Shown: positions 2,504-38,100 of the stretch, piece after piece
How positions within the stretch are numbered: position 1 is the first letter of the stretch
Layout of the letters: each line of letters begins with the position of its first letter
Virus record (IMG/VR): IMGVR_UViG_3300032562_000003
Coordinates: 124,001-188,000 of that record
DNA: 64,000 nucleotides
Origin: a virus
Reading direction: 5' to 3' (one strand)
Translations under genes and position numbers: made by a program
The notes under the pieces: model-generated
What the model was told of the DNA's origin: nothing
The model's input: only the letters and a program-made list of their open reading frames with translations
Databases searched by the model: none

Positions 2504-3283
2504 TTACACGTCTTTCTGTTTACAGTTATCACCGTGCCAACGAGAATAGTTACTGGGACCAAAAGTTTTATGACAATGTGGGCAAATTTTCTTTAAGTCT
2601 TCTCTGTTATTAGGATTATTTTTTGAGAACTCTTCTTTCATCCTAACAGCAACTTTATCACCGAATCCTTCTGGTTTAGATACACCTTTTTGCTTTATTG
2701 AACGTTTTATCTTTTGTTCTTCGCTCATTGGTCCCTTAGGTTTTCCCTTGAGTGCTAAACTTTGTTTCAATTTGGTTTCTTCAGAGCGTTTTTGTCCAGT
2801 TACTTTAGCGATTCTTTTTAACTGTCCTTCAGCCTGTTTAACAGGATCTATCTTTCTGTTGCGTGTTCTTTCTCTATGTTTTTCTAACTCTTCACCTTCA
2901 AGTTTTTGACCTTTGTTCCAAGCTGGTTTACCTTTCATTCTTTCTGAATGAGTTTTTGCGTGTGCTATCCGATGTTTTTCATATGCTCTAGTTATGATAC
3001 GTGAGTGGTATCTTTGCTGAAACTCATTTTCAGCGTTCATCCCATTAAACGCATATGACATCTTGACGCGGTCTTCTCCTTCAGTCATCTTTAACAATGC
3101 CCAATGACAAAGTGCGTGTTCTCTTCCTGTTAGCCACACCTTATTATCTTTATCATCATTGCCTCCCATTGAACTAGGAATAATATGATGTCGTTCTTTG
3201 TATTGCCCTTTTGGCAATGTACGATTTTTTGCTTTCTCAATAAGGAGCATGTAGTGTTTAGTATATTTATTTTCTTTGAACAT
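2504..3283 (-). CDS. HNH homing endonuclease
   Basis: The 259-residue product has an HNH nuclease core at about residues 31-65 (ERHHIIPSSMGGNDDKDN, then HALCHW). It is followed by basic NUMOD3-like repeats with GKPAWNKGQ and SEETKLKQS, and a C-terminal zinc-ribbon pair, CPHC and HGDNC. This is the build of free-standing phage homing endonucleases. It is inserted after the major capsid gene and before the acetyltransferase gene, with its own late-type promoter (3305-3312). An SD-like AAAGGTG precedes the ATG. The frame is intact and probably functional. Confidence 0.88.
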   Translation of the reverse strand: MFKENKYTKHYMLLIEKAKNRTLPKGQYKERHHIIPSSMGGNDDKDNKVWLTGREHALCHWALLKMTEGEDRVKMSYAFNGMNAENEFQQRYHSRIITRAYEKHRIAHAKTHSERMKGKPAWNKGQKLEGEELEKHRERTRNRKIDPVKQAEGQLKRIAKVTGQKRSEETKLKQSLALKGKPKGPMSEEQKIKRSIKQKGVSKPEGFGDKVAVRMKEEFSKNNPNNREDLKKICPHCHKTFGPSNYSRWHGDNCKQKDV

Positions 3284-7360: not shown

Positions 7361-7482
7361 TAAATTGTCTCCTGAATAGAAATGGCTTTGTATATTATAC
7401 TTATGCAGTGAGACAAAAAACACCGTATTAAGTAGTCTTTTTTGCGTTTTTGGCGGTGCTATACAAAATAAATATGGAGAAA

Positions 7483-7490
7483 GATAAATA
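7483..7490 (+). promoter_or_regulatory. Late promoter GATAAATA for the HNH gene at 7551
   Basis: GATAAATA lies just before the leader hairpin of this homing gene, so the hairpin would be at the very 5' end of the transcript. Confidence 0.55.
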
Positions 7491-7495
7491 AAGAT

Positions 7496-7525
7496 GTAGT
7501 TCACGGTGCGCTAACACCCAACTAC
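7496..7525 (+). promoter_or_regulatory. Homing-endonuclease leader hairpin, copy 1
   Basis: The stem is GTAGTT/AACTAC with a 3-by-1 internal loop (CAC / C), then GGTG/CACC closing a six-base loop. Downstream is CTCTAATGCTA, then AAGGAG and the ATG. Copies at 8521-8550 and 18709-18739 keep the fold while changing both sides of the stems. TGCT/AGCA could also pair around the AAGG ribosome-binding site. Confidence 0.7.
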
Positions 7526-7550
7526 TCTAATGCTATAAGGAGCAATCAGC

Positions 7551-8186
7551 ATGTGTATTTATTGCGGCACTACCAAATACCGTAGAATCTACGAACAACA
7601 CAACGGACCTATTCCAAAAGAAGAGAATGATCGATCATATGAAATCCATCACATAGACGGTGATCATTCAAATAATGACCCGATAAACTTGAAGTGTGTA
7701 ACTATTCAAGAACATTATGATATTCATTATTCTCAAGGTGACTACGGTGCTTGTTTTTTACTAGGTAAAAAACAAAAAGTTTCACCTGAAAAACTATCCG
7801 ATTTGAATAGGCTACAGAACTTAACCAGAATACAGAATAATACCCACAACTTGATCAAAAGGGCAGATGGTAGTTCACATGCGTCGGACAGGGTAAAAAA
7901 CGGAACTCATCATTTCTTAGACAAAGAAGCCGCAAGTCTCAGAGGAAAAAAACGAGTAGAAAACGGAACTCATCATTTCTTGAAACAAAACAGGTCACTT
8001 GCTTTTGTAGATAAAGTTAATCAACCTGTATATAAATGGAAACACGTAAAAACTGGTGAAATAGAAATTTTAACAGCAAAAGATTTCATGATCAAACATG
8101 ATTTATCAAAGTATCAAGGGAACATAAGTTGGTTAATAAGTGGTAAACATAAATCGGTTAAAGGTTGGATAGTAATACGAGATTGA
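7551..8186 (+). CDS. HNH homing endonuclease, opposite strand to head genes
   Basis: The 211-residue product starts MCIYCGTTKYR, with CxxC giving half a zinc site, and contains an HNH core EIHHIDGDHSNNDPINL (about residues 41-57) with YDIHYS following. Two copies of NGTHHFL near 118 and 142 frame basic linker sequence. The C-terminus (KDFMIKHDLSKYQGN, then ISGKHKSVKGW) is a NUMOD1-like DNA-recognition helix module, also present in the decayed gene at 9300-9418. It is inserted between the acidic core gene and the small basic gene, against the direction of the head operon, with its own late promoter and leader hairpin. Confidence 0.88.
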   Translation: MCIYCGTTKYRRIYEQHNGPIPKEENDRSYEIHHIDGDHSNNDPINLKCVTIQEHYDIHYSQGDYGACFLLGKKQKVSPEKLSDLNRLQNLTRIQNNTHNLIKRADGSSHASDRVKNGTHHFLDKEAASLRGKKRVENGTHHFLKQNRSLAFVDKVNQPVYKWKHVKTGEIEILTAKDFMIKHDLSKYQGNISWLISGKHKSVKGWIVIRD

Positions 8187-8244
8187 CGAGTTTCTCCTAT
8201 ATAAATAGGACAAACGTCTCCTTCATATTCAGGTTTTACGATAA

Positions 8245-8478
8245 CTAGATGCTAGGTGCCCCGGCCGCAGCGTCAGGTTTAGCACCATACTGTTTACGTA
8301 ACTTTTCTAGGTACTGTTGCTTCTCGAATGTTCTTACATCCAGCATTCTACGAAGCTTTCGAATCTGTCTAAGCGTCAACTTAGTCTTGCGTGACGTTCT
8401 ATACACAGGTCTGCTGTTGTCAGAATTTACATCCTGTAGACCATTGACCGGCGGACTAAAAATATCTTCTAAAAGCAT
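8245..8478 (-). CDS. Small basic protein between portal and core genes
   Basis: The 77-residue product has a basic, helical central part (SRKTKLTLRQIRKLRRMLDV, continuing to EKLRKQYG) and an Ala/Pro tail. It lies between portal gene 20 and the gp67-like gene, on the same strand, so it is most likely a head or portal-vertex protein. I cannot tie it to a T4 protein with confidence; T4 has nothing between 20 and 67. A late promoter (8495-8502) lies 17 bases upstream and GAGGGTG precedes the ATG. Confidence 0.65.
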   Translation of the reverse strand: MLLEDIFSPPVNGLQDVNSDNSRPVYRTSRKTKLTLRQIRKLRRMLDVRTFEKQQYLEKLRKQYGAKPDAAAGAPSI

Positions 8479-8494
8479 GACACCCTCATCAATA

Positions 8495-8515
8495 TATTTA
8501 TCATTATGATAAATA
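8495..8515. promoter_or_regulatory. Palindromic pair of divergent late promoters
   Basis: TATTTATC (8495-8502) and GATAAATA (8508-8515) form an inverted repeat around CATTA. The minus copy serves the 77-residue gene and the plus copy serves the decayed GIY-YIG gene. Confidence 0.6.
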
Positions 8516-8520
8516 TAAAC

Positions 8521-8550
8521 GTAGTTCGCGGGTCAGCAAACCCCAACTAC
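8521..8550 (+). promoter_or_regulatory. Homing-endonuclease leader hairpin, copy 2
   Basis: GTAGTT/AACTAC, internal loop CGC/C, then GGGT/ACCC around the loop CAGCAA. The inner stem differs from copy 1 (GGTG/CACC) on both sides, so pairing is kept. The following CTCTAATGCTA is identical to the other copies, but the ribosome-binding part is changed to TTAGGAAAC. Confidence 0.7.
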
Positions 8551-8577
8551 TCTAATGCTATCTTAGGAAACATCAGC

Positions 8578-9418
8578 ATGACTATTTATCTATACAAGAA
8601 AACCCATAACATAACTGGATTAAAATACTTAGGTAAAACCGCACAATCTAATCCATATAAGTATCCAGGATCCGGAAAAATGTAGAGGTCGCATATAAAA
8701 ACACATGGGTATGATGTTACTACTGAAATATTACGAGAGTGTCACTCTAAAGAAGAGGTAGCAGAATGGGGTTATACTACTCTAAACTGTGGAATATAGT
8801 AGACGAGCGGGATAAGAATGGGAAGAAAACGTGGGCTAATCTAAAGTTTGAAGAGGGCGACGGAGGTGCAACTGTTTTTGGTGACAGCCATCATTCTAAA
8901 ACTATTGAATTTAAAAATAGAATTGATCACGCATGGACTCCCGAAAAAAGAAAAAAACAAGGTGATCTGTCTCGATCACGATTTTCGCACATGTCTACTG
9001 AAGACAAAAAACATATAAGAAAAAAAGCAATCGACACTAGAACTAAAAATAACCCAGATTGGAGGAAAGACTTATCTGATAGAATGTTAGGGAAAACAAT
9101 CCTTCAAAATCTAAAGAAGTAATAGAAAAGATAGCAGAAAGTAAATCAAACTGGAATGACTCCTTTCGAGAATATGTAATCAGTAAAAATTCTGGAATTA
9201 ATCATTACAGAAACAACCCTAATTACAAATCAACTCAATTTGGAAAGGGGCACCCTAATTATAACCCCAATGTATACTCATTTAAAAATAAAAATACACT
9301 AGAAGAAGTTAGAATGACAGTGTTTGATTTTATAAAAACATACAACCTACATCAAGGAAATGTAAGTTTATTAATGTCTGGAAAAAGAAAATCTGTACGC
9401 GGGTGGATGTTATCTTAG
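8578..9418 (+). pseudogene. Decayed GIY-YIG homing endonuclease
   Basis: The ATG at 8578 begins MTIYLYKKTHNITGLKYLGK, almost identical to the intact GIY-YIG protein at 17975-18682. The frame is broken by a TAG at about 8684, where the intact paralogue has Trp. It resumes (SHIKTHGYDVTTEIL, later KKTWANL), then shifts frame near 9085-9100. The shifted frame continues to 9418 with a NUMOD1-like end (YNLHQGNVSLLMSGKRKSVR). It lies convergent to the portal gene and overlaps its stop by a few bases. At least two disabling changes are present, so full-length product is not expected. Confidence 0.88.
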
Positions 9419-12400
9419 AAGCCGCCGCCCGGAGTTGCTCCAGGTCCGCCCATTGCTGATGGTTCTGCTGCTACATCGCCGCCTGAAACTGGCCCAGCAG
9501 TTTCCGGTGCTTCACCTTCCTGTTCGGAATTCTCAATCTGATCCGCAGTATTCATATCAGCATCAAAGTCTCCGCTGGATACACCTATGTTTCTAAGATC
9601 AGCACCCTGTGGTTCGCTAGTGACTTCTTCTCTGTTTTCTTCTTCCCAGAGCTTTTCGTTCTTCTTGATTTCTTCTTCTGAAAGACCTAAGAATCTTTCA
9701 AGGTTGAAGCGCTTTGACATGTATGGAATAGCATCCATAGCAGAGAACACTGATACTCGTGCATTATCTAACTCACTCTGACGGTAGGCTGCAAAGTTTT
9801 GCGGAGGATTAAAAGTTAGTTGGAAAAGACTAGTATCAATATTGAAGCCTCTCCAACGCAAGAATAACTTAAACTCTTCATCCAGCTTCAAGCAGATATA
9901 ATTCTGAAGTCTTTCACAGTATTGATTGAATCTAAATTCTTGAATCATCGCTGTGCCGACACGACCATCGTTCATGGGTGTAGTATTGTCGTCGGGACCA
10001 GTTGGTAAGTATGAAGACGGAACACGAAGTCCACGGGCAAGACGATTATTGAAGTACTTCAAGTCATCGATTTCACCTAGATTTTGTCCGCCCGGCAGAA
10101 CTTCAACAGATGATCCACGTCCTTCTGCTGTTACAGGGAAGAAATAGTCTTCGTTCATTGAGTTCTTTACAAATATACCAGCGTCGATAGCAAACGTATG
10201 ATAATCATGCCATTGATGACGCCCATCAATAGTTATAGTTCCAGTGTCTCTGTTACTTACCTTTTCAATCTTTACAATTCTATGGTTAAAATTGTCAATT
10301 TCTTTTACAAAATGTTTCCAATTTTTATATCCAAATTTAGAAAGAAGTCTGTCTAACTTACTGTACCCAAACTTATTAAAGTCTATTTTACATTGTGCAT
10401 TTTTATAATCCAATGGTGATGAATTAGCATTCTTAACCAAACTCAATAAGGTGCTATCATTATCACACCACTCCAGTACCTTATTTTTATTTTTATTACC
10501 TTGCTTAACCTGTTCTGCTACTCGTTGTACCATATCAAATGTCAAGATCAGTGGTTGATTTTTAATTTTAACTCTCTTTTCACAATTTGCACGAACTTTT
10601 TCCAAACCAACTGGATTACGATCAAAGTACTCTTTGCGCACTTGTTGCATACTAGATTTATATTTAGCCGCAGTTATAGGATCGTTCTTTCTAGCCCATA
10701 CAGCTTTTTGTTGCGCTGCTCTAATGTTCCAAAGACCGATTAGACGTTCTTCTTCGGTCATATTTTCCCAATTTTCTTTTAGAGTGGCCGAAGTTTTAGA
10801 CGTTATCTGCTTTCTATATTCATCTGACATCGTTTCCCAAAATTCTTTTTTCTGTGCAGCATGATATAAAACATGATCTGTTTTGTTCATGAATACTAGG
10901 TTTTTGGGTTCGTTATTAAATCTATTGTTATCTTTATGATGAATAACTGTTCTAGGTGCCATTGCGTATTCAGTTAGATAATTAAATTCTTGGTGCTTTC
11001 CTAAATTTCTAAAGAAATCCCCGACCATCCGATGAGTCCAAATCCATTTTTTACTCTCATGGTCCCATACCTGCTGGTAATCATTGGTTTTTCCGCCTGA
11101 AATATTTTTATTTTGAGTATTGAACGCAATTAGACTATCATTTTCAGTTAAATGTTGTGCTTCTACAAAGCCTTTATCAAACACAGGTATTTTATGGTCT
11201 GGTGTACAAACTAATGTTTTGCCGTTATCAAAAGTAAGTTTAATTACTTCTGTGTTTTTTCTAGTAATGCCAGCCCAATTAATTACTCCAGGTACTACTC
11301 TACCGGTTACTGGATCGCAGCTATACGCCCAATTTTCTTTTCCAGCTTCAAATTCAGTGATTATTTCTTGTAAAGACAAGGTTCTTCCATCTAAAAGTGG
11401 AATTTTAGTTTCTAAATCCAAACATAAAGGGTTATAAGAGGCGTCCACAATCGACTGTCCACCGTACGGTGAGGGAATTCTACGCTGGTGAATTTCGTTC
11501 TTTACTCGCTCAACAAATGCCATTGCTAAGTGACTTGGCATGTTACCAACATCGATCTTAAACATTCTACGTTCAGGTGCACGCTGCACACGATAGATAA
11601 GAACCGCATCTTCTAGTAGTTCTTTTTGCTTATAGACCTTAAAGATGTTTTCCAGTATAGATTGACCAAAAGGCCAAAATCTATCTAATCCTTCAGTTAA
11701 GGACAAGTGTACAATATGCTTACTGTCTACTGCTGATTCACTCTGACCTAATGTAAAACGACTTCCAGTCGTATTATATGGCATTGCCGGAACAGTGTAC
11801 GGGGTGTTAGTTCCGCCGCCACTACCACCTAAACCAGTTGCTGGGTTCGCAGCAAAGTCAGTATTGGTTTTCTGTGCTACTGATAAGTTTTGTAGATTGA
11901 TATTGATGTCTTTGATGACATACTGTTCCGGCTTCTTGCCCTCAGATTCGTTGACGATAACCTTAATGACCTTAACCATATCAACCCAGTATAGCTTAAA
12001 GTTTTCTGGGTCACGAACAAATACTTGGTCACCATACTTGACAACGTTTCTGAAAATCTTAAACATTCTCACGTCGAATTCATTTAGCTTGCACCACTGT
12101 TGTAGCTGCTTACCTAGCAATTCTACTTCACGTGGCGTAGGTTCTCCTTTGAATTCAAACGCAAACGGTGTCTTGTTATGTTCATTTCGCTGTGTAGAGA
12201 ACTCTGCTATGATGTCCAAACAAGCGTTGATTTCAGCATCAACGTCCATCATTTCGTATTGATTGTATCGTTCGATTCTGTTGGGGTGACCAGTGTAGAC
12301 TTCCGGTAGTCTACTTTGATAGTTTTTGTATCCAAATTCAGTATTGTTCCAACCACCAGTTGGCATACCGTTTTGTCCAGGCGACCCATTCCATGCTCCG

Positions 12401-12474
12401 GCATTACTGCTCGCACCAGAGATAGGACTCGAAACACCACTCTTGTTTAGAAATTTCTTCTTGTATCCAGACAT
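9415..12474 (-). CDS. 20: Portal vertex protein, T4 gp20-like, interrupted by an intein
   Basis: The precursor is 1019 residues; without the intein (residues 351-771) the portal is 598 residues, close to T4 gp20 (524). Portal blocks are NRIERYNQYEMMDVDAEINA, the wing region with KYGDQVFVRD, ERRMFKIDVGNMP, MNEDYFFPVTAEGRGSSVEV and DLKYFNNRLARGLRVPSSYL. The intein sits exactly between YNPL and SMNEDYFF, in the most conserved part of the protein, where imprecise splicing would be lethal. The C-terminus is acidic then Gly/Pro-rich. A late-type promoter (12498-12505) lies 23 bases upstream, overlapping the end of the preceding gene. Confidence 0.96.
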   Translation of the reverse strand: MSGYKKKFLNKSGVSSPISGASSNAGAWNGSPGQNGMPTGGWNNTEFGYKNYQSRLPEVYTGHPNRIERYNQYEMMDVDAEINACLDIIAEFSTQRNEHNKTPFAFEFKGEPTPREVELLGKQLQQWCKLNEFDVRMFKIFRNVVKYGDQVFVRDPENFKLYWVDMVKVIKVIVNESEGKKPEQYVIKDININLQNLSVAQKTNTDFAANPATGLGGSGGGTNTPYTVPAMPYNTTGSRFTLGQSESAVDSKHIVHLSLTEGLDRFWPFGQSILENIFKVYKQKELLEDAVLIYRVQRAPERRMFKIDVGNMPSHLAMAFVERVKNEIHQRRIPSPYGGQSIVDASYNPLCLDLETKIPLLDGRTLSLQEIITEFEAGKENWAYSCDPVTGRVVPGVINWAGITRKNTEVIKLTFDNGKTLVCTPDHKIPVFDKGFVEAQHLTENDSLIAFNTQNKNISGGKTNDYQQVWDHESKKWIWTHRMVGDFFRNLGKHQEFNYLTEYAMAPRTVIHHKDNNRFNNEPKNLVFMNKTDHVLYHAAQKKEFWETMSDEYRKQITSKTSATLKENWENMTEEERLIGLWNIRAAQQKAVWARKNDPITAAKYKSSMQQVRKEYFDRNPVGLEKVRANCEKRVKIKNQPLILTFDMVQRVAEQVKQGNKNKNKVLEWCDNDSTLLSLVKNANSSPLDYKNAQCKIDFNKFGYSKLDRLLSKFGYKNWKHFVKEIDNFNHRIVKIEKVSNRDTGTITIDGRHQWHDYHTFAIDAGIFVKNSMNEDYFFPVTAEGRGSSVEVLPGGQNLGEIDDLKYFNNRLARGLRVPSSYLPTGPDDNTTPMNDGRVGTAMIQEFRFNQYCERLQNYICLKLDEEFKLFLRWRGFNIDTSLFQLTFNPPQNFAAYRQSELDNARVSVFSAMDAIPYMSKRFNLERFLGLSEEEIKKNEKLWEEENREEVTSEPQGADLRNIGVSSGDFDADMNTADQIENSEQEGEAPETAGPVSGGDVAAEPSAMGGPGATPGGGF
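10162..11424 (-). mobile_element. HNH intein in the portal protein
   Basis: The element is 421 codons. It starts with Cys351 (CLDLETKIPLLDG, splicing block A). Block B reads GKTLVCTPDHKIPV with the T-x-x-H motif. An HNH homing domain follows (TVIHHKDNNRFNNEPKNL). The C-terminal blocks are WHDYHTFAIDAGIFVKN, followed by Ser as the +1 extein residue. The terminal Asn is kept, but the usual penultimate His is Lys. Intein type is therefore Cys1...Asn/Ser+1. The frame is intact through both exteins, so it is probably active in splicing. Confidence 0.93.
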
Positions 12475-12497
12475 ATGAACCAGTTCTCTTAATCTAA

Positions 12498-12505
12498 TAT
12501 TTAGT
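12498..12505 (-). promoter_or_regulatory. Late promoter variant ACTAAATA for the portal gene
   Basis: ACTAAATA on the minus strand lies 23 bases before the portal ATG and just beyond the stop of the upstream gene at 12507. Confidence 0.5.
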
Positions 12506-12506
12506 G

Positions 12507-15500
12507 CTATGCCATTGAATTACGTAATAACTTAGTCTGTGTACCGTGACTACTTTCAAGGACGGAGATTACTTTATCTAATTTATTTGCCATCATTCCA
12601 AACATTTCCGCTGTAATTTCTCCTGAATTACCAGAAGAATGAGGGTGTGCGGTTTTACCTTTAACTATAGTTTCTATTGCGGCCGCGTCAGTTGCAGGTG
12701 TTTTAGCTAATTTCATAAGCAAAGAATCTGGTCCTAAAGGTGCAACCAGTTCGCCGCCGTGCAATGTAGCCGGATATCCAGACAATGGCCCATCAAACAT
12801 TCCACCGTTTCTAGCTTGTAATTTTCCTTGTCTAAGTAGTGAAATATCCTCTTGCGCCCGACGCCCTACTTGTCCTGCCCACTTACTAGAAGATAATTGT
12901 GCGGCCGCGCCTTCAACATCACCAGCCGAAAGTGCAGCAGTTAAATGTGGCCACTTTTTGTACCAAGACGGGCCCATATTAAATGTCAAGTCTGTTAGCG
13001 CAGCTTGGCCTTTTTCATTTAATTTGTTGAATCCCGGAATATTGCTAGCAGCTTGTTTATGCTTGCCGAAATCCTGCTGGTAAAGTTTCATGACTTCATC
13101 CTTAGAGAACTCACGATTCCATTCAGGTGGTAAAGTACTACCGTCACCGATCAAATGACCCACCCCAATTGTCCATTTACCTAAGGAGTCTTTATATGGT
13201 TTAGTACGCACTCCTTCATGTCCTGCAATTAGATCCATTACCCAATTTCCAAATGACCCAATTGCACCTGCGGCGGCGCCACCGGCTTTTCCTAAGAAAC
13301 TTCCAGCTGCGCCCAACGCGCCGCCTGCTGCATGACCAGCTGCGCCCAACGCGCCTCCTGCTGCATGACCAGCTGCGCCCAACGCGCCTCCTGCTGCATG
13401 ACCAGCTGCGCCCAACGCGCCTCCTACTGCACCCACTGCTCCTGCCCCTAAAGCGGCGCCTGCTGCCATAGCTCCGCCGCCGCCGCCGGATGCTCCACCG
13501 CCTCGGAAGCTACCCATAGCAGTAGCGAACTTCAAGAATGCATCAGTGTTCTTGTCTGCATTAGGACCAAAATCCATCTTAGTGAACTTAAGGAATGCTT
13601 CAGTCGGGCTGTCTTGACCGAATAACTTGCTTAATCCGGAAACTGCTATATCTTTTATTGCTGTTCCCAAGCTTGGTCCGCCTTTATACTTAGACATCGC
13701 TTCCGAAAATGCTATTAATGCATCGGCGTTGGTTTTTACTTTGGCACCGTCGATAGGGAATGATTGGAAATACATTAGTTGCTTAGCAGCAATCTTTAGC
13801 GGATCTTCTTTACCTCCTCCAGTAAAGAAGTTGGCCATTCTACCCATTGCTCCAGCAACTTGTCCAGCGCCTATAGCAACGATGCCAACGCCTAATGCCG
13901 CCATACCTAAACCGGCTTTTTTAAGATTTTCGCCGTTAATGTCATTAAACGCTTTTAAACTCTTTCCCAAGCTTGGAAGCATTACGCTTATTAAGCCGCC
14001 GCCTATGGCCAAACCAGCACCGATACCGGTGATGATCGCAGCAAGAGCAACCCCTAATGCCACGCCGCCCTCCATAACCGCCGGCCCGGCCTTACCTGCT
14101 GCTGCTAGTGCTTCTACTAGACCCATAAGCATTCCGCCGCCGGCGGCTTTACTCATACCACCTACTGCCTCAGCGGCGCCGGCTGCTCCTTTCGGAGCAC
14201 CGCCTCCTAATAGACCCGCAAGTCCACCTGCTTTTCCTAATGCTGCTTTTCCTAAGTTAAATGTAACTAGCCCAAGAGCTCCTGCAAGTGCTACACCGGC
14301 TAAGGTTGCCAGAGTTAAACCATGTTGGAATGGATTCATACTATTAATTAACTCATCCATTCCAACTTTAGCTTTGATTTCTGCATTAGTTAACGCATTT
14401 CTCGCATCTTGTGCTGGATCTTCTGGTCCATTTTCAGCTACACTAGCTGGTTCATATCCAGCTAATTGGTTTGCTGTAGTGAGTGTTCCTGTATTAATAT
14501 TAGCCGCAGAAGCTAATCCTGAATTAACAGACAATGCTGTACTATTTTTAGTTGCAAAGTCTAATGTTTTATCAACCAAATCTTTTTGGAAGTCACCGGC
14601 CTCTTTAGTACCAAACGTTCCTGCGTTGACGGCTGACGCCGTTTTTGCATAATCCTGACCAGTACCTTGAAGTGCTAGAGCTTTTTGGAAAGGCCCGGAA
14701 ACAAAACCTTGTGTTATCTGTTGAGCCATGGCGGCGGCGGAGTCGGCGCCGCCTGTTCTTTGTGCAACTTGAACTGCGTTTTGCGCACTATCTATTTGCT
14801 TTTTTATAGCGTCCTTTTCAGCTTGAGTCTTTGCTGCGTCCATTTCTTTGTGTTTTTTAGCAAGAAATAGCTGGAATTGTATATTAGCCATCGACGCGGC
14901 TTGAGTTTTCTTCTCTTGTTCTACAGATTCTCCGGTAGCTGCGGACATCTCATTTAAATTTTTGATGTATGCAAGGGATGCACCTTGCAGACCACCGGTA
15001 GTCTTACTCAAATCTCGCAACGAAACACCACCTTCAGACATTAAGGTGTTGTAGTCAGCCTGAGCCTGCATTAGTTCGTCTACGCCATATCCCAATCTTT
15101 GAAATTGATTTCTAACCTTTTCGGTTACATGAACCTGTTCTGCAAACTTCTTAGTAGAATCGGCGGCTCCATTACCTAATGCATTGAAGGAATTACCCAT
15201 GCTTTGCATAGGTTTGAGCATTTTTTGAAAATCACCTGAGGCTAAACCAGCATTATTAGCCATCTTTTGAAGTTCGTTAGTGGTGAAAGTGTTAACAGCA
15301 CCTAACCTACTGATACCATCAGAAAATTTTAGTAAATTATCAGTTTGGGCGGTCGCTGCACTCACTACTTTAGTAAATGCAGCAGCTACTAAACCTGCAG
15401 CAACCCCAACGGGCCCCAAAGCTTTTCCTACTTGTATTGCGGCGGTTCCCATGCTATCTAAAGCTGATGTATATTTGTTTAACTCACCTGTACCGTTAAG

Positions 15501-15689
15501 TAATGCTTTAGCGAAGCTACCGGCAGCATCGTCTAACGATCTGAATGCTTTGTTGACGCTACCTACGCGAGTTGAAGCGTTATCAGAAGATTCGCTGAGA
15601 TTTTTTATTGCAGGAGAGGCGTCCCGGCTAATAATATCTGATAACTCTTTAAGCTGTGCGCTTAGCTCTGCTGCGATTTCTGGATCCAT
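12507..15689 (-). CDS. Tape-measure-like tail protein with C-terminal T4-type lysozyme domain
   Basis: The product is 1060 residues. The first ~450 are helical and tape-measure-like (ELSAQLKELSDIISRDAS onwards). A hydrophobic central region rich in Gly/Ala (about 450-620) could form membrane segments. A Gly/Ala repeat (GALGAAGHAAG, four copies) at about 752-795 is a linker. A GH24 lysozyme domain follows, with E825, D834 and T840 at exactly T4 lysozyme spacing (HEGVRTKPYKDSLGKWTIGVGH). The C-terminus resembles tape-measure ends. It probably enters the cell envelope during injection and cuts peptidoglycan. It lies divergent from gene 26. A role as gp29 equivalent is inference from length, composition and context. 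Confidence 0.8.
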   Translation of the reverse strand: MDPEIAAELSAQLKELSDIISRDASPAIKNLSESSDNASTRVGSVNKAFRSLDDAAGSFAKALLNGTGELNKYTSALDSMGTAAIQVGKALGPVGVAAGLVAAAFTKVVSAATAQTDNLLKFSDGISRLGAVNTFTTNELQKMANNAGLASGDFQKMLKPMQSMGNSFNALGNGAADSTKKFAEQVHVTEKVRNQFQRLGYGVDELMQAQADYNTLMSEGGVSLRDLSKTTGGLQGASLAYIKNLNEMSAATGESVEQEKKTQAASMANIQFQLFLAKKHKEMDAAKTQAEKDAIKKQIDSAQNAVQVAQRTGGADSAAAMAQQITQGFVSGPFQKALALQGTGQDYAKTASAVNAGTFGTKEAGDFQKDLVDKTLDFATKNSTALSVNSGLASAANINTGTLTTANQLAGYEPASVAENGPEDPAQDARNALTNAEIKAKVGMDELINSMNPFQHGLTLATLAGVALAGALGLVTFNLGKAALGKAGGLAGLLGGGAPKGAAGAAEAVGGMSKAAGGGMLMGLVEALAAAGKAGPAVMEGGVALGVALAAIITGIGAGLAIGGGLISVMLPSLGKSLKAFNDINGENLKKAGLGMAALGVGIVAIGAGQVAGAMGRMANFFTGGGKEDPLKIAAKQLMYFQSFPIDGAKVKTNADALIAFSEAMSKYKGGPSLGTAIKDIAVSGLSKLFGQDSPTEAFLKFTKMDFGPNADKNTDAFLKFATAMGSFRGGGASGGGGGAMAAGAALGAGAVGAVGGALGAAGHAAGGALGAAGHAAGGALGAAGHAAGGALGAAGSFLGKAGGAAAGAIGSFGNWVMDLIAGHEGVRTKPYKDSLGKWTIGVGHLIGDGSTLPPEWNREFSKDEVMKLYQQDFGKHKQAASNIPGFNKLNEKGQAALTDLTFNMGPSWYKKWPHLTAALSAGDVEGAAAQLSSSKWAGQVGRRAQEDISLLRQGKLQARNGGMFDGPLSGYPATLHGGELVAPLGPDSLLMKLAKTPATDAAAIETIVKGKTAHPHSSGNSGEITAEMFGMMANKLDKVISVLESSHGTQTKLLRNSMA
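13303..13434 (-). repeat. Four tandem 33-bp units encoding GALGAAGHAAG
   Basis: Units start at 13303, 13336, 13369 and 13402 and differ by only a few bases; the last is the most diverged. They encode the flexible linker before the lysozyme domain, so copy number can vary without breaking the frame. Confidence 0.9.
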
Positions 15690-15727
15690 AGTCGATTCCG
15701 TTAAATTAAATAATTGGGTTTTTTGAC

Positions 15728-15753
15728 CACTAAATATACGTATGTATTTAGTG
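15728..15753. promoter_or_regulatory. Palindromic pair of divergent late promoters (ACTAAATA)
   Basis: CACTAAATA (15728-15736) and TATTTAGTG (15745-15753) are perfect 9-bp arms around TACGTATG. Each arm carries ACTAAATA facing outwards. The plus copy is about 48 bases before gene 26 and the minus copy about 55 bases before the tape-measure-like gene. Confidence 0.6.
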
Positions 15754-15784
15754 TTAACTAAAAACCGAAAATTATGAGGAAATT

Positions 15785-16606
15785 ATGAACAATAACCCGC
15801 TAAGACAGTACTTCAGAAGACCTGCTGTTTACCTAAAACTCCCCTCAGGAACCACAAGCTACTCAGAGGACGTGATAAACATTCCAGTAACCGGCGAATT
15901 ACCAATCTATCCGATGACTGCTATTGATGAAATTACAGCCAGAACTCCGGATTCGTTGTTTAACGGTACTGCAATTGCTGAATTAATAAAAAGCTGTGTA
16001 CCTGACATCAAAGATCCATGGGCTATTAGTAGCAGTGATTTAGATGCTATCCTCATCGCAATTAAGTCTGCTTCCAACGGTGATCAATTGGACATAGATT
16101 CGATCTGTCCAAAATGTAACGAACTTTCTCCGTACGGCATCAGCTTAGTTGGTATATTGTCTACCCTTAAGGCAGGGGATTACAATAAGGAATTTGAAGT
16201 AGGTGATCTAAAAATTAAGTTTAGACCGTTGGTTTATAAAGAAATGAATGAAGCTTCTATAGCTCAGTTTGAAATGCAAAAACTGTTTGCCTCTATGGAA
16301 AATATGTCAGAAGAGGAAAAAAATAAAATAGGTGGTGATGCACTTGAACGGGTAACGTTGTTGACTATGAAATTATTAAGTTTAGGTATTGAATATATAG
16401 AAACACCAGAAATCAAGGTACAAGAAAATGAGTTTATTCTAGATTTTCTCAAGAACTGTGATCGAAATACTTTTACTTCTATTAGAGACTACGCTACAGA
16501 ACTTAAGAAAAGTTCCACACCACAGCCATTAAAGATAAAATGTGATAGCTGCGGACACGAATACGAGCAAGATTTCTCATTGAACCCTTCTGATTTTTTC
16601 GGCTAA
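15785..16606 (+). CDS. 26: Baseplate hub assembly protein, T4 gp26-like
   Basis: The 273-residue product matches the gp26-type baseplate family: N-terminal YFRRPAVYLKLPSGTTSY and LPIYPMTAIDEITARTPDSL, and two CxxC pairs, CPKC near residue 113 and CDSCGHEYE near 257, which could bind zinc. GAGGAA lies 6 bases before the ATG. It ends SDFFG with the stop only two codons after a slippery T TTT TTC. Ribosomes shifting -1 there would add 76 residues (see 16600-16830), giving about 348. In T4, 26 and 51 are adjacent separate genes; in lambda-like phages tail chaperones use the same trick. It is the first gene after a divergent late promoter. Confidence 0.88.
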   Translation: MNNNPLRQYFRRPAVYLKLPSGTTSYSEDVINIPVTGELPIYPMTAIDEITARTPDSLFNGTAIAELIKSCVPDIKDPWAISSSDLDAILIAIKSASNGDQLDIDSICPKCNELSPYGISLVGILSTLKAGDYNKEFEVGDLKIKFRPLVYKEMNEASIAQFEMQKLFASMENMSEEEKNKIGGDALERVTLLTMKLLSLGIEYIETPEIKVQENEFILDFLKNCDRNTFTSIRDYATELKKSSTPQPLKIKCDSCGHEYEQDFSLNPSDFFG

Positions 16607-16643
16607 AGCTTCTACGCTCTAAACCCGAAGAGATTCAGAAGCT
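16594..16643 (+). promoter_or_regulatory. Programmed -1 ribosomal frameshift signal
   Basis: The heptamer T TTT TTC (16594-16600) is in phase with gene 26. The zero-frame TAA follows at 16604. Six bases after the heptamer a stem begins: AGCTTCT (16607-16613) pairs with AGAAGCT (16637-16643), with an inner CTCT/AGAG (16617-16620 / 16629-16632). The -1 frame is closed by TGA at 16591, directly before the heptamer. Confidence 0.75.
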
Positions 16644-16830
16644 ACTAGATGAGTATGAAAAAGACGTAGCGGGTATACGCAAATCTGCACTTACTATGGC
16701 ATGGTACATGCGCGGTGGCGCTTCATATGAGGACATCCTCAACATGTCTATAGAGGAAAGAAAGGCTATCAACGATATAATTGATAGCAACCTAGAAACT
16801 ACAAAGAAATCCCAGCTACCATTCTTCTAA
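16600..16830 (+). CDS. -1 frame extension of gene 26 (gene 51 position), expressed by frameshift
   Basis: This frame runs 76 codons from the slip site to TAA at 16828 and reads RLKLLRSKPEEIQKLLDEYE, then DVAGIRKSALTMAWYMRGG, ASYEDILNMSIEERKAINDI and a final KKSQLPFF. It has no ATG, GTG or TTG start before the internal Met codons in the conserved-looking middle, so it needs the -1 slip to be read whole. Composition (helical, charged, ending in LPFF) fits a tail assembly chaperone extension. It is far shorter than T4 gp51 (249 residues) and I do not claim homology. The zero-frame and shifted products would be made in a fixed ratio. Confidence 0.72.
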   Translation, partial: RLKLLRSKPEEIQKLLDEYEKDVAGIRKSALTMAWYMRGGASYEDILNMSIEERKAINDIIDSNLETTKKSQLPFF

Positions 16831-16836
16831 CCGACA

Positions 16837-16866
16837 TAGAGAGAACTATTCATTTAATTCTCTCTA
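16837..16866 (+). terminator. Hairpin just after the 26/frameshift unit
   Basis: A perfect 9-bp stem TAGAGAGAA / TTCTCTCTA with a 12-base loop follows the stop by 6 bases and is followed by TTTCC. The stem is AU-rich and the T tract short, so it may be a weak terminator or the first helix of the structured region. Confidence 0.45.
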
Positions 16867-16886
16867 TTTCCATATCTACTTAGGTT

Positions 16887-16972
16887 AGAGTATCTTTTAG
16901 AGTTGTCCTTACGGACAACTTATATCTCACTACGTTCGATATATTCTTTTTAATTGTCTTAAAGAATACTCT
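16887..16972. ncRNA. Predicted three-way RNA junction
   Basis: AGAGTAT (16887-16893) pairs with ATACTCT (16966-16972), and the helix extends inwards with one bulge. Inside are a perfect 8-bp hairpin AGTTGTCC-TTAC-GGACAACT (16901-16920) and TATATC/GATATA (16921-16942). On the plus strand it is followed by AGGAG and an ATG at 16986 that opens only MPDWKPW. Confidence 0.5.
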
Positions 16973-16979
16973 CTAGGAG

Positions 16980-17362
16980 TTATACATGCCGGATTGGAAG
17001 CCATGGTAGTGCTATTCAGCACTACCAATGGTATTAGGGGCCATGCCATGGACCTTCCACCGTTGCTGTCTATCCCCCGTCAATCTAGCGTTTGTTGCTG
17101 ATTGACGCTACCGGTTGCACTGTAAAGTTTGCTAGGGCTGTAGTGAAGCTGACCACCCCTTAGGGGAAGTTCTTCTGCAACGCATGTTCTACACCTTCAA
17201 GACAGAATAGACGTGTAGACTCATTCAGGGTTCGCATTCTACCAAGCGAGAGCCCTGTCGGTATTCCCGAACATCATGGATTCCATGATGCTCAGCAGAC
17301 TCCAGATCCGCGCCATGATATCTCGCATGTCGCTCAAGGAGAGTCGAGGTACCCCGACCAAA
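16980..17362. ncRNA. Candidate large structured non-coding RNA
   Basis: About 380 bases without a credible gene on either strand, GC-richer by eye than flanking genes, and nearly all pairable. Hairpins seen: 17001-17031 (GGTAGTGCT/AGCACTACC), 17079-17106 (GTCAATC/GATTGAC), 17156-17166 (CCCC/GGGG), 17188-17219 (TCTACAC/GTGTAGA), 17226-17257 (CAGGG/CCCTG with TCGC/GCGA), 17258-17270 (TCGG/CCGA), 17272-17290 (CATCATGG/CCATGATG) and 17298-17345 (GACTC/GAGTC). GTTGCA (17114) can pair with TGCAAC (17176) to enclose some of these. It lies between convergent units. Strand and function are unknown; no tRNA, tmRNA or RNase P features and no convincing group I core were found. Confidence 0.55.
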
Positions 17363-17387
17363 CGCCAATATAGGGTTCTGTGATTTT

Positions 17388-17960
17388 TTAGATTTGAATG
17401 GAGATAATGTTGTCGGACGTGGTGTCGGGTGAGCCAGAAGAATTATTTGTAGATGAGCCTGAATATGCTTTAAGAAGGTCTTTGTTGAGTTTAAAAAAGT
17501 TATCGAATTCTATGAACACCCAATCGCCGTGTTTAGCTGAGGTGTAAAGAATGAAGTTGTCAGTAACCCACGTGTACTTTGTTTGAACGGCGACAAAGCG
17601 TCCTTTTCTATTAATCTTAAACATCAATATGTTTAGATTGTCAGGGTCAGATACTTCCATTAACTGATCTAACCAAGACTCGACCACTTTGCAATCACCT
17701 GAGAGCAAAAGATGAAAAGGGAAAGTAGCATAGCTCTTGCATTCAGAGTTAAAATTTACCCAATCATCAGGCGCAATTATGTCTCCTTTGAAAGACTTAG
17801 TTTGATTTGCATCAAGTATGTTTTTGCGATGAGAATTAGATCGTCCGATATACGCGCCTGAATTGGGAACACGCACAAATGAAGCGGAATACAACGCTGA
17901 CAAGAAGGCCGCGACCTCCCGCTCAAATGAACTTCCTTTTGCTTTAGATTTAGAAGGCAT
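17388..17960 (-). CDS. PD-(D/E)XK-like nuclease
   Basis: The 190-residue product has the order expected of a PD-(D/E)XK nuclease or Holliday-junction-resolvase-like fold: an N-terminal helix with conserved Glu (GSSFEREVAAFL, E13/E15), RVPNSGAYIG, then GD at 59-60 and E73-C-K75 (NSECKSY) as the metal-binding core. The Ser/Thr-rich tail is probably disordered. It lies in the recombination block upstream of gp46/47 in genome order and could process branched DNA before packaging. It starts MPSKSKAKG; an AATAAATA-like sequence is only ~16 bases upstream. The exact family is not certain. Confidence 0.68.
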   Translation of the reverse strand: MPSKSKAKGSSFEREVAAFLSALYSASFVRVPNSGAYIGRSNSHRKNILDANQTKSFKGDIIAPDDWVNFNSECKSYATFPFHLLLSGDCKVVESWLDQLMEVSDPDNLNILMFKINRKGRFVAVQTKYTWVTDNFILYTSAKHGDWVFIEFDNFFKLNKDLLKAYSGSSTNNSSGSPDTTSDNIISIQI

Positions 17961-17974
17961 ATGATATTTATTGT

Positions 17975-18682
17975 CTATATACGGTTGTTTTTATTTTTAC
18001 ACTTATCTCCGTGATATTTCACAAAGTTGTGTCTAGCGCAGGTTTTACTGCAATGTTCACACGTCATGGGCGGAGATGTTTTGCCATACCTTGGACTATG
18101 TTCTCCGATTTTGCCGAACATAGGATTGTTGTGGCCTGAAAGCTTTTCTGATCGTTTTCGTTTAGACTCGTCAGTGTGTTTTTTACCGAGATGGGATCTT
18201 CTAACACGGTCCGCTATTGCAGGGTCTTTCATCGGATTGTTATCTCCGGATATATCATCTCGCTTCTGTCCAAACATGTGATTTCCGAAACCTTTCCTCT
18301 GCTCACTCAACTTTGGGTTAGTAACATCGGTTTTGGCAATGCTTATGTTTTCTTTGTGAGAATCTGTTAACTTAAATCCCGGTAATCTACCTCCTCCGTC
18401 ACTGGTTTCTGGTCTTAAATTAGCCCATGTTTTCTTTCCGTTGGCATCTTTTTCTTCAACCACGTTCCATAAATTACTATAATACAATCCCCGCTCTTTT
18501 AATTCTTTAGTTGTTTTGCATTCTGCTAGTATCTCAGTCGTAACATCATATCCGTGAGTTTTAATATGATCTTTCCAATAGTCACCTGAGCCTTTATATT
18601 TGTGCGGGTCTTTGGCTGTTGTTTTACCTAGGTATTTAAGACCGGTTATGTTGTGGGTCTTTTTATATAGATAAATATTCAT
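17975..18682 (-). CDS. GIY-YIG homing endonuclease (Seg-like)
   Basis: The 235-residue product begins MNIYLYKKTHNITGLKYLGK, a GIY-YIG variant (IYLYK...KYLGKT), with HKYKGSGDYWKDHI and the Glu/Tyr-containing ERGLYYSNLWNVVEE completing the catalytic module (about residues 1-90). NUMOD3-like repeats (GKKHTDESKRKRSEKLSGHN) and a C-terminal zinc-ribbon pair CEHC / YHGDKC follow. It is the intact relative of the pseudogene at 8578-9418. Its own late promoter and leader hairpin lie upstream, the promoter overlapping the gp46 stop, so it sits at the 3' end of gene 46. Confidence 0.9.
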   Translation of the reverse strand: MNIYLYKKTHNITGLKYLGKTTAKDPHKYKGSGDYWKDHIKTHGYDVTTEILAECKTTKELKERGLYYSNLWNVVEEKDANGKKTWANLRPETSDGGGRLPGFKLTDSHKENISIAKTDVTNPKLSEQRKGFGNHMFGQKRDDISGDNNPMKDPAIADRVRRSHLGKKHTDESKRKRSEKLSGHNNPMFGKIGEHSPRYGKTSPPMTCEHCSKTCARHNFVKYHGDKCKNKNNRI

Positions 18683-18708
18683 TGCTGATTGCTCCTTCTA
18701 GCATTAGA

Positions 18709-18739
18709 GTGAGTGGGGATTCGTACTCCCGCGACTCAC
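18709..18739 (-). promoter_or_regulatory. Homing-endonuclease leader hairpin, copy 3
   Basis: Minus strand: GTGAGT/ACTCAC, internal loop CGC/C, then GGGA/TCCC around GTACGAA. Both stems differ from copies 1 and 2 with matching changes on the opposite side. The same CTCTAATGCTA and AAGGAGCAATCAGC follow to the ATG at 18682. Confidence 0.75.
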
Positions 18740-18742
18740 ATC

Positions 18743-18750
18743 TATTTATC
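18743..18750 (-). promoter_or_regulatory. Late promoter GATAAATA for the GIY-YIG gene
   Basis: GATAAATA on the minus strand overlaps the gp46 stop codon and directly precedes the leader hairpin, the same arrangement as at 7483 and 8508. Confidence 0.55.
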
Positions 18751-35155: not shown

Positions 35156-38100
35156 ATGGCCCGAATTCGGACAATAACTTTTCTTCCTGAGATTTTTCAA
35201 ACCTCAACTAACGCGGAATTTTTGTCAGCGACCCTAGATCAGATCGTAAATCCACCGAATACGATGAAGATTCAAGGCTATGTAGGTAGCAAGTTTGGAT
35301 ATGGTGTAAATGCAACTGACAATTATGTAGTTGAACCAACAAAAACTCGGGTGAACTATCAGTTAGATCCGGGTGTAGTTTTTACTAAGCCAAACGAATC
35401 TGTAGCAAACGACTTTATCTCGTATCCAGGCATCATCGACTCTATTGCAATGCAAGATAGTATTACGGATAACAACAGTCGTCTATTCAAAAGTCAGTTT
35501 TATTCATGGGACTCCTTCACTAACCTCGACAAGCTCATTAACTTTAATGAATATTACTGGTTGCCAGTCGGGCCGCCGGCTGTTACTATCTCAGCAGCAA
35601 CCGTGTACTCTACTGAAAATTATGCAGTCACATCACTACCTAATGGATATGAAATTGCTCTAGTCGGACAACCTATCGGTAGCATCAATCCTACACTTGG
35701 ATTGATCCGCGGAGGAACCTATACTTTTGCTGTAAATCAATCGTCTCAGTTTTGGATTCAGACGGATCCGGGTACCTCAGGATATTCGCCATTCCAATCG
35801 AATCTTACTACTAGACAAGTATACGGAGTAGACAACAATGGCGCAAGTCAAGGTGTTGTTACGTTTACTGTTCCGCAAAAAAATGCACAAGATCAATATA
35901 TTTTTCCAGGTAACAACACTGTCGATCTAGTCAGCACTAAATTGTTTGACCAAGTAAATGGAGCAGTTTTAAAGACATTTACTGACACGGATGGCGTAAC
36001 ATATCAAGGACTTAATGACATTGATGGCGTGACTGCGCTTGAAGGGTTACGCATCATGTTCTATTATGATGGTATTCCGGCAGAGAAGGGAAACACAGAG
36101 ACCTTCTTGAGCGAGACACCGCTGGACATCAATAGTGATGTTCTCGTCGCACCAATCGTTATAAATGTAACTAGCTGTGATGCTTCTGCGTTTACTACAG
36201 ATAGTACCTCTCAATTAGTAGTCGGTCAAACTGTAACCTTTAACAACCCAACATTCGGTGGAGTTACTGCAGGGGAAGTCTATTATGTTCATAGTATTCC
36301 TACTTCAGGTACATTTACTATCGCGTTGACTCTAGATGCTTCGTCTCCGTTAACTTTGGTTCCTGGATCAGGTACTATGGTTGCCAATATCAATCAGGGT
36401 CTATATGAAGAAAGTGTCGCATCAACGGTGTTTGAATACTATTACTTGATTGAATACATCGGTGATCCAAAGAACCCAACTATTCGTTTAGTTCCAGATG
36501 GTACTATTCCTGTAAATCAAACAATTACTCCATTATATGGTACTCAATGGAACAATATACCATTTTATCGTTCACCTACCGGAGTAATTAATCCAATTCC
36601 TGTTATCACTGCTCCGTTAGATGTTCTATATTATCAAGACGGTACATCTGCTGATTCTGTCGGCGTGATTAAAATCATTGACAGCAATACTACAAATACT
36701 ATTAATGTTGTGACTGAAATCTTGGGTAACCCTAATTATACGTCATCTAGTGGAGTAGTATTTACTAATGGATTGAAAGTTAACTTTCAAGGTGACATTA
36801 TTCCTACAAGTTATTTACAGGGACAATACTATGTACAGGGTGTAGGAACTGCAATTGAGTTAGTTCCAGTAAGCTCTCTAGTCTGTACTGAAGATTTTAC
36901 ACATGGTAATTACATTCCATATGATTCTACACCATATGACATTAGCAATTACGATTCGGACCTTTTTATTCCAACAGATAAAGACTATATTACTATTGCT
37001 AGAAACGCAATCAATAAAAATGCTTGGTCCAGAAGCAATCGTTGGTTCCACATCGATGTCATCAACGCAACTGCAAAATACAATAACGACCCTAATATCG
37101 CAACTACTTACGCGACACAAGCAAACAAAGCAGTCCGCCCTATAATCGAGTTTTATCCTAATCTAAAATTATACAATTCGGGTTCTGTAGGCGCCGCAGG
37201 AATCGATTTTATCGATACCCATAACACTGATGCATTGTCAACAGTAGCAGGATCTTACAATTATTACCCAGATACAGAAGTACTTACTACAGCATCGGCG
37301 TCGGTTGTAGGAGTAACCGCCGCAACATCAACTACCTTTAGTGTAGACGCTGCTAACGTTTCGGGTACATTCCAAATTGGAATGTATGTTGCAGATTCTT
37401 CAAGCATTCTTCCTAATAATACACAAATTACCGACATTACTGGTACTACTACGCTAACTGTAACAGTTTCATGGCCCGGCGCAAAAAACATATCCTCTGC
37501 TTCAAACTTGTCTATTGTGGGTTCAGACACTACTTTAGATAACTATGCTTTGTTTCCGGAAGCAAGAATCGTATTTGCTGCTGACTCTAGCTCTACTGTA
37601 AGAAACAAAATCTATGTCGTAAACTTCTCGGTAATTGATCCTAATACTAGACCTGTAATTACACTCACGGTAGCAGAAGACGGAAATATTGTCCCTGATG
37701 AACAATTAGCAATTAAGCGTGGTTATTATCACCAAGGCACTAGTTACTATTATGATGGTATAAAGTGGATACAGGCACAACAAAAGGTTACGGTTAACCA
37801 ACCACCGCTGTTTGACGTTTTTGATGCCAACGGTATTTCTTTTGGGGATTCTTCGGTCTATCAAAGTACTTCGTTCAAGGGGTGTAAACTTTTCGCATAC
37901 AGTGTTGGTAGCGGAGTCAATGACCCTATATTAGGCTTTCCAATCGCATATTCTGGTATAGATAACGTAGGGGATATTAGTTTCGACGTATCACTGAATT
38001 TGGATACATTTAATTATGTGTCTGGATATAATCCTATTAATCAAAAGGTAAATACTGGCTACGTATATAATTATACATCAGGTACATCATATGTAAGACA

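Follow-up and report, generated by a model that had tools for sequence, protein, structure and literature searches.

A covarying two-hairpin leader shared by homing endonuclease genes of T4-like phages, and its predicted antisense RNA

Homing endonuclease genes in a T4-like phage known from the IMG/VR record IMGVR_UViG_3300032562_000003 (258,859 bases; genome G000, contig C1) are preceded by a structured leader, which is the subject of this report. The window that we analysed is a stretch of 64,000 nucleotides (nt), positions 124,001-188,000 of that record; the phage's major capsid protein shares ~66% identity with its counterpart in the Pseudomonas PA5oct group. A preliminary description of the window had placed a hairpin at 7496-7525 and 8521-8550 on the plus strand and at 18709-18739 on the minus strand, and all three are present in the sequence with the stems that it gave. 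In each copy the hairpin lies between a late promoter, GATAAATA, and the element CTCTAATGCTA followed by a Shine-Dalgarno sequence, and HNH and GIY-YIG genes alike stand behind it, as was originally noted. We examine here how widespread this leader is, which of its strands carries the selected structure, and what it may do.

Results

The hairpin, which we call P2, consists of a 6-base-pair outer stem, then C-R-C opposite a single Y, then a 4-base-pair inner stem. We gathered 261 distinct leader copies from IMG/VR contigs among the matches listed, and the family thus numbers at least 261. In 146 non-redundant copies the P2 stems occur in 20 outer and more than 30 inner combinations, and almost every cell is paired. 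Double changes are present at all 10 P2 pairs in a MAFFT alignment of 44 copies, where the covariation score is 0.63 against 0.18 +/- 0.02 for shuffled alignments (reached by none of 500 shuffles), and sliding the partners gives 0.09 or less; the proposed selection on RNA structure is thus supported against both controls. The bases of the "CRC/C internal loop" of the preliminary description are there, but the R covaries with C or T as a pair of its own (G-C in 222 copies, A-T in 6, A.C in 33, and G.T never, among the 261), lying between two invariant bulged C's that are G's on the other strand.

The preliminary description had missed another covarying hairpin, P3. It has the form CU-A-NNNNN-loop-N'N'N'N'N'-C-AG, its loop holds the Shine-Dalgarno AAGG, and the start codon follows directly. 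The supposedly fixed CTCTAATGCTA is the 5' arm of P3, which is constant in some copies and elsewhere varies with compensation in the other arm (TGATT/AATCA, ACATA/TATGT, TTACT/AGTAA, ATGTC/GACAT and others); the complementarity of the arms lies above that of all 1000 permutations.

The leader recurs in other large viral contigs. A covariance model of it (R1) scores the three window copies at 81-87 bits (E 2e-19 to 6e-18), well outside what chance would give, although they were among its seeds. With E below 1e-10 it detects 8 copies in G000, and ten further large contigs of viruses have 1 to 16 copies each. Additional copies with compensatory changes are numerous, and the check that the preliminary description had set for its claim is thereby passed. 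Scans of IMG/VR returned at least 116 stretches with the pattern CTCTAATGCTA..GGA..ATCAGC, at least 119 with the P2 stem alone, and at least 117 with the ribosome-binding site and a TATTTAT motif alone. The 11-mer CTCTAATGCTA occurs exactly 5 times in the whole G000 record, its reversed pattern 0 times, and the copies inspected there all lie behind a P2 hairpin. Outside these contigs, no Rfam 15 family scored above its curated threshold on either strand (a relaxed E gave weak unrelated matches only), a consensus blastn search of 50,697 isolate-phage records gave nothing relevant, and a pattern scan of 84,980 genomes in GTDB gave zero matches. R1 found no leader copy in Aeh1, phage 25 or PA5oct, and in T4 a single match at E 0.1, which is not convincing; a covariance model of the antisense strand (R2) found no match in Aeh1, phage 25, S-PM2 or four further isolates. 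A search of the open-licence literature found no described leader of this kind. The leader hairpins are a large family without earlier description.

RNA stems tolerate G.U pairs, not A.C. Because A.C on one strand is G.U on the other, departures from Watson-Crick pairing point to selection on the antisense RNA, that is, on the strand complementary to the nuclease messenger RNA (mRNA). With the loop-closing pair excluded, the non-Watson-Crick cells of P2 in the 261 copies comprise 49 A.C, 1 G.U and 1 other; counted once per distinct stem, A.C outnumbers G.U by 28 to 1 (p 1e-7). The departures in P3 likewise number 28 A.C and 1 G.U (p 1e-7), and a further P3 pair, outside this count, is A.C in 43 of 45 copies, where the antisense G.U makes the complementary hairpin, P3', a continuous helix. 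Our copy filter scored Watson-Crick pairs alone and so favoured neither mismatch. A.C cells turn up at 5 of the 6 outer pairs and at each of the 3 inner ones that were counted, as well as at the R-Y pair and every one of the 5 pairs in the P3 arms; being spread over so many pairs, they cannot be one inherited event. In transfer RNA (tRNA) acceptor stems from the same loci, taken as a control, we counted 28 G.U and 2 A.C.

Other measures bear on the same question. RNAalifold predicts both P3' and the complementary P2' (16 pairs, -15.2 kcal/mol) from the antisense alignment and P2 only (10 pairs, -12.3 kcal/mol) from the sense alignment. Among 53 copies from five genomes that were found by the model and not by pattern, 98.3% of antisense cells are paired, in an alignment fitted to that model, and covariation is 0.535 against 0.204 when shuffled. 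Bit scores of the sense and antisense covariance models did not by themselves separate the strands. The structure is equally intact whether the upstream gene is codirectional (0 G.U, 5 A.C) or divergent (1 G.U, 7 A.C), and therefore is not a neighbour's leader. The preliminary description had taken the selected structure to be a hairpin of the nuclease mRNA; the excess of A.C over G.U indicates instead that the conserved fold belongs to the strand opposite the nuclease gene.

Promoter-like motifs flank the structure on both sides. On the sense strand, [ACGT][ACG]TAAATA precedes the first G of the stem by 5 nt in 205/261 copies and by 3 nt in 38/261; its TAAATA core is found in nearly all relatives, mostly 5 nt ahead of the hairpin, which bears out the late-promoter context first noted. 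The window contains 14 instances of GATAAATA where 4.5 are expected. For TATAAATA the corresponding figures are 2 and 6.2. Apparently the phage uses GATAAATA, and not TATAAATA, as its late promoter.

On the other side, TATTTAT stands 5 nt from CAGC, at the end of P3, in 212/251 copies, downstream of the start codon, which itself falls at offset 0, 1 or 2 between the two motifs. As a result, GIY-YIG as well as HNH proteins begin with M-x-I-Y, M-I-F or M-Y-L. TATTTAT is kept in three reading frames, and therefore it is the nucleotides that are conserved and not the peptide; a protein constraint, such as the GIY strand, is rejected because of these three frames and because HNH proteins have the motif too. 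Read on the other strand, TATTTAT is ATAAATA, a late-promoter motif overlapping nuclease codons 2-4, and unrelated nucleases may begin with M-x-I-Y because those codons double as an antisense promoter. The predicted antisense +1, abutting P3, is G in 247/251 copies, and two of the three antisense elements in the window match GATAAATA exactly.

In the parsed copies, the predicted antisense RNA spans the leader from the mRNA +1 up to a base that immediately precedes the start codon or lies close to it. The tract after P2' has at least 5 U in 9 nt in 80% of copies and is the complement of the sense promoter and its spacer. From its form, P2' with this tract is plausibly an intrinsic terminator of the antisense RNA. 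A terminator scan of copies 1 and 2 flagged copy 2 only (8542-8523, minus strand).

Two other roles for TATTTAT were considered. Pairing with the sense promoter, which would create a three-way junction in read-through transcripts, is unsupported: it is rarely predicted (median pairing 0.009), the association at the two variable positions is weak (p 0.008 and 0.06 with G.U counted, 0.03 and 0.045 without), and C stands opposite G there in 0/16 cases. TATTTAT as a replacement promoter for divergent neighbours was rejected, as it is not enriched there.

Almost all genes behind the leader resemble homing nucleases. Among 134 linked open reading frames (ORFs) of at least 60 amino acids, ~90 are GIY-YIG-like and ~41 HNH-like, classes that rest partly on motif patterns of our own making, and one is a DUF7487 protein with a TnsA-like nuclease match. 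We sampled 20 copies in G000 and one relative, and 19 of them stand before homing-nuclease-like genes. The remaining copy, L404 (G007:C1:103336-103416), has downstream of it a 106-amino-acid ORF without a Pfam match; this leader has possibly been taken over by another gene.

Comparison of related loci indicates that leader and nuclease move together and that unrelated nucleases are exchanged behind one leader, because there are both empty sites and nuclease swaps; the idea that the leader travels as a cassette is thereby strengthened. At site 1, relative L044 is 91.6% identical over 370 flanking nt, yet is without the segment at ~7457-8235. The site that follows the gp46-like gene is empty in several relatives and occupied in others by different nucleases behind the same leader. 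Loci L027 and L102 have flank and leader in common, then diverge into unrelated GIY-YIG and HNH genes, and similarity resumes right behind the nuclease. The stop codon of a codirectional upstream gene frequently overlaps the leader promoter, ending at +2, +5 or +9 of GATAAATAA. The late promoter is repeated behind the nuclease in 21/120 cases against a 5% background, a minority feature. A truncated leader in L253 (near 1274, reverse strand) retains the sense promoter and one half of P2 but has neither P3 nor a nuclease; it lies beside a duplicated gene end and looks like a deletion scar.

The features of the three window copies are collected in Table 1. The leader of copy 2 is intact although its GIY-YIG gene is broken. 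Two other free-standing nuclease genes in the window are without the leader, an HNH gene at 2504-3283 (minus) and a GIY-YIG/NUMOD3 gene at 54215-54883 (plus); upstream of the former there is only a GATAAATA, 22 nt away. Within the T4-type portal protein gene gp20 (9415-12474, minus) there is an in-frame intein that includes an HNH domain (Portal_T4, Intein_splicing, HNH_3), and one ORF, 6297 codons long and containing repeated domains, occupies 35156-54049 (plus) in the structural-gene region.

Table 1. Coordinates of the leader copies and associated genes in the window. Strands of P2 and P3 are those of the predicted antisense RNA.
Feature	Position	Strand	Remarks
Site 1 inserted segment	7457..8235 (approximate)	+	missing in relative L044
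Copy 1 sense late promoter GATAAATA	7483..7490	+	exact motif; complement is part of the antisense U-rich 3' end
Copy 1 predicted antisense RNA	7483..7550	-	+1 is the complement of C7550; 3' end inferred, near the U-rich tract
Copy 1 P2 hairpin (P2' on antisense)	7496..7525	-	6-base-pair outer stem, R-Y pair between bulged C/G, 4-base-pair inner stem
Copy 1 P3 hairpin (P3' on antisense)	7527..7549	-	loop is the Shine-Dalgarno complement
Copy 1 Shine-Dalgarno AAGGAG of HNH gene	7537..7542	+	in or adjoining the P3 loop; from sequence
HNH homing endonuclease gene	7551..8186	+	HNH_3, E 5.5e-13
Copy 1 antisense late-promoter-like element	7556..7563	-	TATTTATT (AATAAATA on minus strand); 5 nt from predicted +1
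Copy 2 sense late promoter GATAAATA	8508..8515	+	exact motif
Copy 2 P2 hairpin	8521..8550	-	covariance model; terminator-like match 8542-8523
Copy 2 P3 hairpin	8552..8576	-	arm pairing
Copy 2 GIY-YIG homing endonuclease gene, broken	8578..9390 (end approximate)	+	several stops, frameshifts
Copy 2 antisense late promoter GATAAATA	8583..8590	-	5 nt from predicted +1 at 8577
GIY-YIG/NUMOD3 homing endonuclease gene (copy 3)	17975..18682	-	between gp46-like gene and next gene
Copy 3 antisense late promoter GATAAATA	18670..18677	+	6 nt from predicted +1 at 18684
Copy 3 P3 hairpin	18685..18707	+	arm pairing
Copy 3 P2 hairpin	18709..18739	+	covariance model
Copy 3 sense late promoter GATAAATA	18743..18750	-	overlaps stop codon of gp46-like gene

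Discussion

We propose that the leader is a two-strand cassette, in which convergent late promoters make the nuclease mRNA and an antisense RNA over its leader and ribosome-binding site, limiting translation; we would put the probability of this hypothesis at roughly 60%. Hypothetically, a T4-type late promoter, N[AC]TAAATA, would make the nuclease mRNA, starting at or next to P2, and a second, convergent late promoter, ATAAATA, would make an antisense RNA of ~60-75 nt, starting at a G 5 nt from that promoter. This RNA would fold as P3', with the complement of the Shine-Dalgarno sequence in its loop, then as a terminator-like P2' with two bulged G's, and would finish in the U-rich tract complementary to the sense promoter. 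Since it matches the mRNA as a perfect complement from about +1 until shortly ahead of the start codon, it would most likely bind the overlapping nuclease leader, the P3' loop meeting the Shine-Dalgarno sequence first, and the pairing would limit nuclease translation late in infection. The A.C/G.U asymmetry may serve to keep P3 weak in the mRNA and P3' strong in the antisense RNA, so that the mRNA would be translatable until the antisense RNA binds. Control of nuclease translation via an antisense RNA is, on the features of the sequence, the likely function of the leader.

Several points weigh against this hypothesis. The antisense promoter is recognized by a short AT-rich motif, in place of which a few copies have TACTTAT, and part of the U-richness of the 3' tract is dictated by the sense promoter across from it. 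Antisense transcription, its 3' end and the repression are inferred from sequence; covariation cannot reveal what an RNA does, and a fold of single-stranded minus-strand DNA would show the same preference for G.T. Action on its own mRNA only might predict that copies sharing a genome differ more than copies from different genomes, and they do not: the apical hairpin is identical in 5/313 pairs within genomes and 7/1227 between them. Copy-specific recognition through avoidance of identical hairpins in a genome was therefore sought in vain among these pairs.

This last result speaks for a minus-strand RNA that acts in trans, on other nuclease mRNAs, on phage or host mRNAs, or on a protein that binds its two bulged G's, and not on its own overlapping mRNA. 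The P3' loop displays an anti-Shine-Dalgarno sequence, and the bulged G's and the GCUG/UAGA flanks are nearly invariant while the stems drift. However, in every case the RNA lies precisely over a nuclease leader, and its anti-Shine-Dalgarno loop is a necessary consequence of the Shine-Dalgarno sequence that the nuclease gene itself has; we consider action in trans unlikely.

The structure could also serve the sense strand, with P2 protecting or insulating the 5' end of the late mRNA and P3 holding the Shine-Dalgarno sequence, so that the mRNA controls its own translation. P2 does begin at the predicted +1 and is predicted in the sense mRNA as well (mean probability 0.81, median 0.94), and the ribosome-binding-site hairpins of T4-type phages provide precedents (PMC2988022, PMC3014915). 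Yet G.U is almost absent and A.C tolerated, the reverse of the tRNA control, and P3 is only half formed on this strand. The preliminary description had suggested that the leader may control translation; folding of the sense leader has little predicted effect on access to the ribosome-binding site, the Shine-Dalgarno sequence being unpaired at 0.57 in late and 0.53 in read-through transcripts, and a hairpin that hides the site differently in the two was discarded for want of a predicted difference. Control by the sense strand is, in our judgement, quite unlikely.

That the minus strand folds as single-stranded DNA for recombination or nuclease mobility, RNA being irrelevant, would fit a mobile element in which G.T, also the best tolerated DNA mismatch, prevails. 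It is very improbable given promoter-like motifs at promoter-to-start spacing on both sides, the varying orientation of the nuclease relative to the upstream gene, and the at least three unrelated nuclease types that would need one DNA structure. Least credible of all, the antisense promoter might mainly serve a divergent neighbour displaced by the insertion, a role that promoters inside homing genes of T4 do play: in 83/141 loci the longest ORF upstream is divergent, and another late-promoter motif lies in between in just 19/74, but TATTTAT is present at 44/56 codirectional loci against 48/74 (p 0.12), the structure is equally kept in codirectional loci, and a terminator-like hairpin separates this promoter from the neighbour.

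The two-strand hypothesis has wider implications. What is known of how homing endonucleases avoid harming the phages that carry them comes from a few T4 cases, in which every gene has a separate hairpin. In the present contigs one module, recognisable by a covariance model, stands before GIY-YIG, HNH and other nucleases in up to 16 copies per genome. Apparently, to judge from these contigs, many giant T4-like lake phages carry several homing nuclease genes whose starts are each overlapped by a small folded RNA, a transcript of the other strand, which probably restrains the nuclease and moves with it between unrelated nuclease types. We see about an even chance that this is a new family of mobile cis-antisense RNAs with their own late promoter, common to at least three unrelated nuclease types, recombined between them, and providing a general self-restraint for selfish DNA in giant T4-like phages. 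If so, selfish nucleases would share one antisense regulator. A more general lesson is that A.C and G.U departures, taken as a ratio, show on which of its two strands a covarying hairpin functions as RNA; reading such a hairpin on the coding strand alone would mislead.

In T4, homing genes are restrained by mRNA hairpins that hide the ribosome-binding site in early and middle read-through transcripts (PMC2988022, PMC3014915). These leaders (I-TevI, I-TevII, I-TevIII, segB and Aeh1 mobE) likewise have a late promoter directly upstream, an RNA structure at the translation start and genes of the GIY-YIG and HNH families (PMC2988022, PMC3014915). However, they are single mRNA hairpins, whereas the present leader belongs to a two-hairpin family selected on the opposite strand and attached to hundreds of nuclease genes, and it shows neither the predicted hiding of the ribosome-binding site in read-through transcripts nor homology to them. 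The seg43 gene of Aeromonas phage 25, a free-standing GIY-YIG gene, is alike in having a stable hairpin just upstream of its ribosome-binding site, which is not hidden (PMC2988022), but phage 25 matches neither strand model. An antisense RNA next to a homing nuclease gene is also found in the T4-like cyanophage S-PM2, where CfrI is ~225 nt long and links psbA with the nuclease gene (Millard et al. 2010, cited in PMC2984593 and PMC9602691); it differs from the predicted RNA in its greater length and in its neighbouring genes, and S-PM2 has no R2 match.

In function, the predicted antisense RNA would by analogy be nearest to the RNAs of plasmid copy control and type I antitoxins. RNAI and CopA, of the former kind, and Sok, of the latter, are small, strongly folded cis-antisense RNAs that pair loop first with a leader or translation start and restrain a costly product. 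Unlike these, the RNA proposed here would have a phage homing endonuclease as its target, and late-phage promoters would drive both strands.

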